Source: Halorubrum sp. Atlit-26R (GTDB lineage: Archaea > Halobacteriota > Halobacteria > Halobacteriales > Haloferacaceae). From it: a stretch of DNA of 64,000 nt. Under the pieces are notes generated by a model that did no database searches, was not told the origin of the DNA, and worked only from the letters and a program-made list of their open reading frames with translations. Location: contig NZ_QPLT01000010.1 of the NCBI RefSeq assembly GCF_003666015.1, forward strand, positions 62,001-126,000. The letters run 5' to 3'. The translations under genes and the position numbers were made by a program. Each line of letters begins with the position of its first letter. The first letter of the stretch is position 1. Below are positions 33,509 through 62,218 of the stretch, piece by piece.

Positions 33509-33905
33509 TATTTAAATATCGCCGAGCGATAGCGGCGATTGTTTATAAAAAGCGGTGGCGCGTGCCTGCGAGCGGCCGGAGCGAAGCGGAGGCCGCGAGT
33601 CGCACGCGCGAGGGACGCCGCGAACGCCCGAAGGGCGTGAGCGGCGAGGCTGGGGAGGCGTGAGGCTGCGGGACGGTTGCGGTCGGGTGGGACTCAAAGG
33701 GGCAGCCGCGAGGAGCCCGTAGGCGACGTAAGCACCGCAGGGAGCGAGTGAAACGAGCGACCGAGGAGCGCAGCGAGCGTACGGGCTCCTCGCGGCTGGG
33801 GCTTTGGAGGTGTTCGCCGCTGGTCTCCGGTCTGCCACTTATAAGTGAGCGACTGGGACTTTGGAGGTGTTCGCCGCCGCACCGTCGTCTATTTATAAAC
33901 AGTCG
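33509..33905 (+). repeat. Structured GC-rich repeat element, copy A
   Basis: Order: TATTTAAATA (33509-33518), TTTATAAA (33542-33549), then GTGGCGCGTGCCTGCGA and a 5' hairpin (GCGTGC/GCACGC, 33560-33565 with 33602-33607; GCGGCC/GGCCGC, 33572-33577 with 33591-33596). The conserved G-rich block GAGGCTGGGGAGGCGTGAGG and GGGTGGGACTCAAAGGGG follow, then a perfect 19-bp stem: CAGCCGCGAGGAGCCCGTA (33703-33721) with TACGGGCTCCTCGCGGCTG (33780-33798). A GGG/GGG internal loop and AAAG/CTTT pairs flank the stem. The 58-base loop holds AAGCACCGCAG and GAGGAGCGCAGCGAGC. Two 57-base units with TTATAA near the end finish it. Confidence 0.8.
33792..33905 (+). repeat. 57-bp direct repeat array, copy A (two units)
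   Basis: Units start at 33792 (GCGGCTGGGGCTTTGGAGG) and 33849 (GCGACTGGGACTTTGGAGG), each continuing GTGTTCGCCGC and carrying TTATAA close to its end. The first unit begins with the 3' arm of the main stem, so the array looks like repeated duplication of the element's 3' end. Confidence 0.8.
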
Positions 33906-33957
33906 CTGGCAGCACCGCTCTAACAGTTATGAAAGATCACGTCCCGGGCGAAACCGC

Positions 33958-44653: not shown

Positions 44654-45115
44654 GCGAGCGATAGCGGGAGTACGTGTAGTACGTTGTGGGTGAAGGGATT
44701 TATAAGTAGACTAGCGGTATTGCTGTCGGCTATTTATAAGAGACTGAAGCTACTGCGGGGAGTGCCTTCAAAGCCCCAGCCGTCGAGGCGGGCGGACGCT
44801 CGCTGCGCTCCTCGTCACTCGCTTCGCTCGTTCCTGCGGTGCTTACTTCGCCTCCGCCCGCCTCGACGGCTGCCCCTTTGATTCCCACCCGTCCCGCACA
44901 GCACCCGCACCTCACACCTCCCCAACCTCGCGGTTCGCGCTCTCCGAGCGCTCACCGCGTCCAGCGAGGGACCGAAGGTCCCTCTGGCAGCCGGCGCGTA
45001 GCGCCGGCGACCTCGCGGGCTGGCTCGCGGCCTCCGCTTCGCTCCGGCCGCTCGCAGGCGCGCCACCGCACTCCTTTATAAGCGATCGTCGCCCTCACTC
45101 ACAGGTATTTAAATA
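44654..45115 (-). repeat. Structured GC-rich repeat element, copy B
   Basis: Reading the minus strand: TATTTAAATA (45106-45115), TTATAAA (45075-45081), GCGGTGGCGCGCCTGCGA, inner hairpin GCGGCC/GGCCGC (45027-45032 with 45046-45051), G-rich block GAGGTTGGGGAGGTGTGAGG, GGGTGGGAATCAAAGGGG, then a perfect 20-bp stem TCCGCCCGCCTCGACGGCTG (44853-44872 as written on plus) with CAGCCGTCGAGGCGGGCGGA (44777-44796 on plus). Loop blocks AAGCACCGCAG and GAGGAGCGCAGCGAGC are kept. Two copy-specific hairpins are inserted: GAGGGACC/GGTCCCTC (44966-44984) and GCCGGCGC/GCGCCGGC (44990-45008). Two TTATAA sites and CCCGCTATCGCTCGC end it. Confidence 0.8.
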
Positions 45116-61644: not shown

Positions 61645-62218
61645 TATTTAAACGAGTATGAGCGACGGCGACGATCTGTCATAAATAGTGGTGCGGTGGC
61701 GCGTGCCTGCGAACGGCCGCCCTCGGCGGCCGCGAGGAGCACGCGCGAGGGAGTCGGTCGCCCGGAGCGAAGCGGAGGGCGACCGACGAGGCTGGGGAGG
61801 TGTGAGGTGCGGTGCGGAGCGGTGCGGGGTGGGACTCAAAGGGGCAGTCGCGAGGACGAAGCACGGCGTTCACGAGAGCGGAGCTCTCGTGAGCCAACCA
61901 GAACGCGGGGCGTTCTGGTGACGACGGAAGCACCGCAGCGAGTGAGCGGAGCGAACGAGCGAGGAGCGCACCGAGCCGCGCGAGTCCTCGCGACTGGGGC
62001 TTTGGAGGAGTTCACCGCCGATCCGCTGTTAGCTATTTATAAGCGAGCGGCCGCGGATTCCGAGGCGTTCACCGCCAATCTGAGGCAAGTCAGTTATAAC
62101 CGAGCGGCTGGGGCTTTGGAGGTGTTCGCCACCGATTCAGCTGTCACTTATAAACATCTGGCAACGACACCGAAATTCTACTTATAAATAACCGCCCAAT
62201 CTTCCCGCTATCGCTCGC
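61645..62218 (+). repeat. Structured GC-rich repeat element, copy C
   Basis: Order: TATTTAAA (61645-61652), TCATAAAT (61679-61686), GTGGCGCGTGCCTGCGA, 5' hairpin (GCGTGC 61701-61706 with GCACGC 61739-61744; GGCCGC 61715-61720 with GCGGCC 61726-61731), GAGGCTGGGGAGGTGTGAGG, GGGTGGGACTCAAAGGGG, then a 13-bp stem CAGTCGCGAGGAC (61845-61857) with GTCCTCGCGACTG (61984-61996). The loop contains two extra perfect 9-bp hairpins (61871-61891 and 61898-61918) absent from copies A and B, plus AAGCACCGCAG and GAGGAGCGCACCGAGC. Four 57-bp units follow, and CCCGCTATCGCTCGC (62204-62218) closes it. Confidence 0.8.
61990..62217 (+). repeat. 57-bp direct repeat array, copy C (four units)
   Basis: Units start at 61990, 62047, 62104 and 62161, exactly 57 bases apart; the last is degenerate. 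Units 1 and 3 begin GCGACTGGGG or GCGGCTGGGG and contain GGCTTTGGAGG; unit 2 keeps only the outline. Each holds a TTATAA-type sequence near its end (62036, 62094, 62149 and 62182 regions). Confidence 0.82.

Follow-up and report, generated by a model that had tools for sequence, protein, structure and literature searches.

The question raised by this locus is why the arms of a repeated hairpin keep pairing when their sequences change, and what kind of element carries it. In the window, that is, the whole 64,000-nt stretch of the Halorubrum sp. Atlit-26R genome analysed here, the first-pass annotation had reported three copies (A, B and C) whose long stems differ in sequence and still pair perfectly, each with a symmetric GGG/GGG loop beside AAAG/CTTT pairs, and had ascribed this to selection on the structure or to gene conversion between the arms. 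The three stems are as described and, to the nucleotide, where they had been placed: 19 bp in copy A, Watson–Crick throughout, formed by direct pairing of the 5′ arm (33703–33721, plus strand) with its exact complement, the 3′ arm (33780–33798); 20 bp in copy B, on the minus strand (44872–44853 with 44796–44777); and 13 bp in copy C (61845–61857 with 61984–61996). The GGG/GGG loop lies between AAAG/CTTT and the main stem in all three. What the annotation did not contain is that the element extends beyond this hairpin, which forms one of its two halves (the whole element spans about 33534–33906 in copy A), that the hairpin holds invariant tandem G·A pairs, and that the genome carries at least 150 copies.

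In copy A, on the plus strand, a TATA-like box (GTTTATAAA, 33534–33551) lies 5′ of the structured body and starts at −15 from the motif GGCGCG; its flank forms with 33889–33906 an 18-nt imperfect inverted repeat. The body begins with a 5′ domain (33553–33665), consisting of P1 (GCGCGTGC/GCACGCGC) with an inner hairpin, a second hairpin and the conserved GAGGCTGGGGAGGNGTGAGG, and continues through a G-rich linker that includes the first two G-tracts (GGGT-GGG, 33666–33691). The 3′ hairpin domain (33689–33810), the part described by our covariance model R1, then stacks in order the AAAG/CTTT helix, the GGG/GGG loop, the 19-bp stem, a G·G, tandem G·A, GCACC/GGAGC and an apical hairpin in which Watson–Crick pairs alternate with tandem G·A pairs. 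The tail (33792–33906) is made of two tandem 57-bp units (3′ arm, GGAGGTGTTCGCCGC and TTATAA). Copy B, on the minus strand, has its 5′ domain at 44910–45066, with a twin-hairpin insertion missing in the orthologue, and its 3′ hairpin domain at 44765–44886, where the 20-bp stem includes an extra paired T:A. Copy C, on the plus strand, comprises a 5′ domain (61696–61807), a 3′ hairpin domain with a nested twin-hairpin insertion (61831–62008) and a tail of tandem 57-bp units with TTATAA motifs (61992–62150). Small nested insertions of this kind (61863–61919 in the window, ~44955–45025 in the 5′ domain of copy B, and in loci L065, L076, L236 and L245) are two adjacent perfect hairpins whose sequence is different each time, and they are missing in the orthologues at sites B and C; they look like a second, smaller mobile repeat targeting loops of the first. 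The number of the 57-bp tail repeats with TTTATAA (33792–33906, 61992–62150) also varies, and they resemble a promoter-bearing satellite.

Among 53 copies from the window's genus, the TATA-like box (TTTATAAA) begins 20 ± 2 nt 5′ of GGCGCG in most of those that have one, while many copies have none and their upstream sequence is unique. The 5′ domain in the genus consists of P1, the inner hairpin, the second hairpin and then GAGGCTGGGGAGGNGTGAGG, followed by the G-rich linker, and the 3′ hairpin of AAAG/CTTT, GGG/GGG, the 19-bp stem, G·G, two pairs, tandem G·A, an internal loop, GCACC/GGAGC and an apical helix, where two Watson–Crick pairs alternate with tandem G·A. The tail, of ~57 bp with another TTTATAA, is often in tandem, and a second arm is found in 76 of 127 copies. 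In other families, the same 3′ hairpin is present and several copies also have the same 5′ domain, with stem sequences that are unrelated; the box and tail are generally absent from the other-family copies inspected. A linker module (GGAAG-CGCAGCCCGCGCAGCGA...GAGCAGGACCGTCTTCC), possibly a further structured motif, is common to copies from different families (L006, L053, L202 in genome G037, L210 in G042, and a site of G062 near C1:2171600). Among 122 parsed own copies (those of this genome), a 22-position stem pattern is followed by 104, mostly as 19 Watson–Crick pairs, G·G and two Watson–Crick pairs; 85 distinct stem sequences occur. The copy A hairpin has a folding energy of −71.7 kcal/mol, which corresponds to z = −8.1 relative to dinucleotide shuffles, and thermodynamics by itself gives the comparative fold, mismatched motifs included, except for three extra internal-loop pairs; the folding energy of the whole 256-nt body has z = −5.7. 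No conserved reading frame was seen in the element, which is ~370 bp long.

Model R1, built from 35 copies and a hand-drawn structure, finds exactly three places in the window (E-values 2.6e-26, 1e-21 and 1.6e-10) and at least 150 copies in the genome, with no E-value among these 150 above about 1e-14; when the copy A region was used as a DNA query against the genome, 40 scored candidates out of 248 gave at least 59 matches. The copies are spread across the large contigs, and none of the 150 best is on C8, C13, C14, C17–C19, C21 or C22, although IS6-type terminal repeats abound on several of these contigs; the element seems to avoid plasmid-like replicons. It is present in 34 of the 35 relatives examined within the genus and, with the same covariance model, in 143 of 194 sampled genomes and 53 of 65 genera of the class Halobacteria. 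Matches to a degenerate pattern were listed from Halorubrum, Halobaculum, Haloarcula, Halovenus, Natrinema, Halomicrococcus, Halopiger, Haladaptatus, Natronococcus, Haloglomus, Halegenticoccus and haloarchaeal MAGs, and none of the named matches listed lies outside Halobacteria; viral contigs gave no match to a 21-nt Halorubrum-type pattern. Neither the window nor copies from other genera matched Rfam 15 at gathering or relaxed thresholds (the best sub-threshold match, mir-637, was judged to be due to chance), and no published description was found in the literature searched. The family is apparently undescribed. An ancestral single-copy locus in low-copy genomes was considered and none was seen; only the Natrinema group has a common site (L254, L280, L366), where one of the three stems is partly decayed. 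Where a genome has just one or a few copies, some of the stems are decayed and relic-like, a point against the explanation favoured below.

The pairing itself is kept by compensation. In 35 own copies, 98.0% of the cells are paired, against 85% after shuffling, double changes affect 20 of the 37 pairs (157 cells, against 12 wobbles), and the covariation score is 0.338, against 0.116 when shuffled and at most 0.05 when slid; none of 500 shuffles equalled the real alignment in its pairing, its double changes or its covariation. For 65 cross-family sequences, in an alignment fitted to the model and hence leaning toward it, 92.3% of the cells are paired, double changes occur at 31 of 36 pairs (612 cells), and covariation reaches 0.640, against 0.160 shuffled and at most 0.06 slid; cross-family stems read without the model are mostly paired over 13–14 bp. 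The comparison of orthologues, which the first-pass annotation had proposed as a check, agrees with this. Copies A, B and C all stand at the same place and in the same orientation in species G062, with flanks ~94–98% identical. At site A, the stem differs from that of G062 at 5 of 19 pairs, from G017 at 2 of 19 and from G029 at 4 of 19, throughout by double changes and with no pair broken (flanks ~90–98% identical), and the apical GCACC/GGAGC pairs have become GGACC/GGACC and GAACC/GGATC in orthologues. The site B stem differs at 3 of 19 pairs and by one entire T:A pair, present in one orthologue and missing from the other, and at one site two Natrinema species differ by three double changes and one wobble. 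Covariation and orthologues, together with the persistent mismatches described next, make selection on the structure well supported.

Conversion had been suggested between the arms; what is visible is conversion between copies, by which whole stem cassettes are exchanged. The 8-nt cassette of copy A (AGCCCGTA) is found again in a second copy whose outer pair differs, and the most frequent cassette is flanked by nine different allele combinations. A stronger version holds that DNA processes alone, such as arm-to-arm template switching or gene conversion between arms, keep the stems perfect while the structure is unselected. In its favour, GC-to-CG flips occur between close orthologues without intermediates, for which arm-to-arm templating is a possible route, and the G028 orthologue at site A (L065) has its upper 3′ hairpin inverted relative to the other copies read, with the tandem G·A turned into T·C, as arm recombination predicts, showing that the arms do recombine. 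However, the GGG/GGG, G·G and G·A/A·G motifs lie inside the arms and are still mismatched in nearly all copies, although blind repair would turn them into Watson–Crick pairs, so that arm-to-arm copying alone cannot explain the pattern; covariation across families and the excess of G·U over A·C speak against it as well. DNA processes acting alone are a very unlikely explanation, but since arm templating could account for the flips, selection and conversion both contribute. That G·U excess also bears on whether the selected molecule is RNA. Transitions should yield G·U and A·C equally unless the strand being read has to pair; across families the non-Watson–Crick cells are 52 G·U against 4 A·C (p = 1e-11), and in own copies 18 against 4, many of them at one position. 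The excess implies that one strand is selected and, with the TATA box on that same strand, points to RNA, so that on sequence grounds the element likely acts as RNA. In contrast, G·U makes up 27 of ~2,470 own stem pairs (1.1%), against 30 of 670 (4.5%) in the tRNA stems of the genome, and with wobbles this rare the fold could also act as single-stranded DNA. A transcription start would be expected ~26 nt 3′ of the TATA box (HF2 paper, PMC8707807) and would fall there inside the first strand of P1, which also counts against the RNA model, as do the many copies that have no box and its absence from the other-family copies inspected. The corresponding alternative is that the fold matters as single-stranded DNA, in transposase-recognised or replication hairpins such as those of REPINs or IS200/IS605 ends. 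Besides the low G·U fraction, it can appeal to the inverted hairpin pairs of some genera, which resemble REPIN doublets (in G059, copies are often inverted pairs ~250–300 bp apart, and such doublets are common in G059 and G053 but not in the genus of the window), and to the tandem G·A pairs and G-tracts, which are also able to form in DNA. Against it stand the strong excess of G·U over A·C on one strand, the multi-domain body with a TATA box on the same strand, and the distribution of the Y1 transposase (PF01797), which is missing from four of the element-rich genomes tested (G016, G019, G028 and G059) and present in two that have no element (G035 and G069). We consider this alternative unlikely, and an IS200-type TnpA or RAYT was rejected as the mover because PF01797 does not track copy number. 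No partner protein of the element was found, which counts against the favoured RNA reading.

The four G-tracts follow a nearly invariant order, GGG-Y-GGG-ACTSRAAG-GGG-(hairpin)-GGG. Tract 1, a GGG(N1–2) that immediately precedes GGGACT, is present in 128 of 130 own copies and in 46 of 67 cross-family ones; for the two tracts of the internal loop the counts are 129 of 130 and 118 of 118. Two of the four are the GGG/GGG loop, and a quadruplex at the foot of the stem, if formed, would explain why these mismatches do not change. Quadruplexes, RNA ones included, have been reported in Haloferax volcanii (PMC12873603).

Concerning mobility, among the species examined that keep the flanking gene order the six closest carry an element at site A, which is empty in many others; in G030 it holds an independent copy in the opposite orientation. 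The empty sites found for the majority form are too diverged to yield a target duplication or clean boundaries. Some own copies lie inside MITE-like elements of 576–678 bp with GGCTCTGTTGAAATCC ends, and exact 8-bp target duplications (AACTGATC and GGTAGCAC) surround two copies, in MITEs of 580–600 bp. Members of the IS6 family generate 8-bp repeats and have GG tips and a cTGTt motif (PMC7986276), and the GGCTCTGTTGAAATCC termini carry both this tip and this motif. At a locus between IS6-like repeats on contig C8, no transposase reading frame was recognised by eye. Together, sites filled or empty between species and copies within IS6-type MITEs support, from sequence comparison, a non-autonomous mobile repeat. 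It could be argued that these are ordinary MITEs belonging to IS6-type (and other) transposons of haloarchaea, in which the structure serves transposition ends only, given the GGCTCTGTTGAAATCC termini on about 7–12 of 130 own copies (both ends in 7), with 8-bp duplications, and the several other-family copies between GTGTTCAGATAAG-type repeats. However, ~90% of own copies have no such termini; the conserved, covarying part is internal rather than terminal; and the same body is combined with different terminal repeats in different families, which makes the ordinary MITE quite improbable. The GTGTTCAGATAAG-type inverted repeats, around L204, L240, L266, L290 and L383, are unlike the IS6-like repeat of the window's genus. 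That the hairpins are intergenic transcription terminators or insulators is more improbable still, to the point of being rejected here: the copies looked at are intergenic and copy A lies between convergent genes, but the flanking genes, by approximate gene calls, are 27 convergent, 30 divergent and 57 tandem, as if oriented at random, the orientation of the element is balanced, and the hairpins of the window copies are not followed by a U-run.

By analogy, the closest counterparts of the element would be REPINs, MITEs and PATEs. Like REPINs and REP sequences (Bertels and Rainey, 2011; PMC3116915), it is non-autonomous, occurs as hundreds of dispersed intergenic palindromes, with tandem clusters and, in G059 and G053, frequent inverted doublets, and shows compensatory changes in its hairpins; it differs in its unit of 120–380 nt with several domains, its tandem G·A helices and G-tracts, its archaeal hosts, and in needing no RAYT-like Y1 transposase. 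With the PATEs and SMRs of Haloquadratum walsbyi (PMC3119063), it shares the nature of a transposase-free, high-copy, palindrome-rich haloarchaeal mobile repeat with heterogeneous copies and nested insertions. Nevertheless, PATEs are described with near-terminal palindromes of IS605 type, while the present structure is internal and covaries across families, and IS200-type TnpA does not track its copy number. A minority of copies resemble IS6-family MITEs (PMC7986276) in their termini and 8-bp target duplications; the published ones, of 227 and 336 bp, come with no mention of a conserved internal RNA in the description consulted, and most present copies are without IS6 termini. Finally, the multi-domain fold, strong covariation and detection by comparative genomics recall the large structured noncoding RNA candidates known from bacteria and archaea (Weinberg et al., 2010, PMC2864571; Rfam 15), in contrast to which the element has no Rfam match and at least 150 copies per genome.

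Our results thus argue, with reasonable though not full confidence, for a mobile repeat, non-autonomous and dispersed in the genomes of Halobacteria, with a conserved structured nucleic acid as its body; this would most likely be an RNA from the G·A/G-tract strand. Transcription would start just 3′ of the TATA box, and the RNA would fold into the 5′ two-hairpin domain and the long 3′ hairpin, with the four G-tracts perhaps closing, at the base of the main stem, a G-quadruplex stabilised by K+. Continued propagation or tolerance may be restricted to copies whose fold is intact, the stems being filtered in this way for pairing, and recombination between copies would supply new stem cassettes. 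A bolder and rather doubtful extension is an archaeal “RNA-bodied” mobile element: a SINE-like, self-promoted structured RNA with a G-quadruplex–duplex cap, whose propagation depends on its fold. If this were true, the quadruplex–duplex fold would suit the K+-rich haloarchaeal cytoplasm, and such an element would have colonised most Halobacteria, with more than 100 copies per genome in some genera. The family is apparently unannotated. With at least 150 copies of ~370 bp, it accounts for more than 1% of this 4.14-Mb genome, and it occurs widely in Halobacteria. It offers a natural library of hundreds of compensated hairpin variants, an opportunity to follow compensatory evolution from strain to strain, and a testable case of an archaeal mobile element whose structure is under selection.
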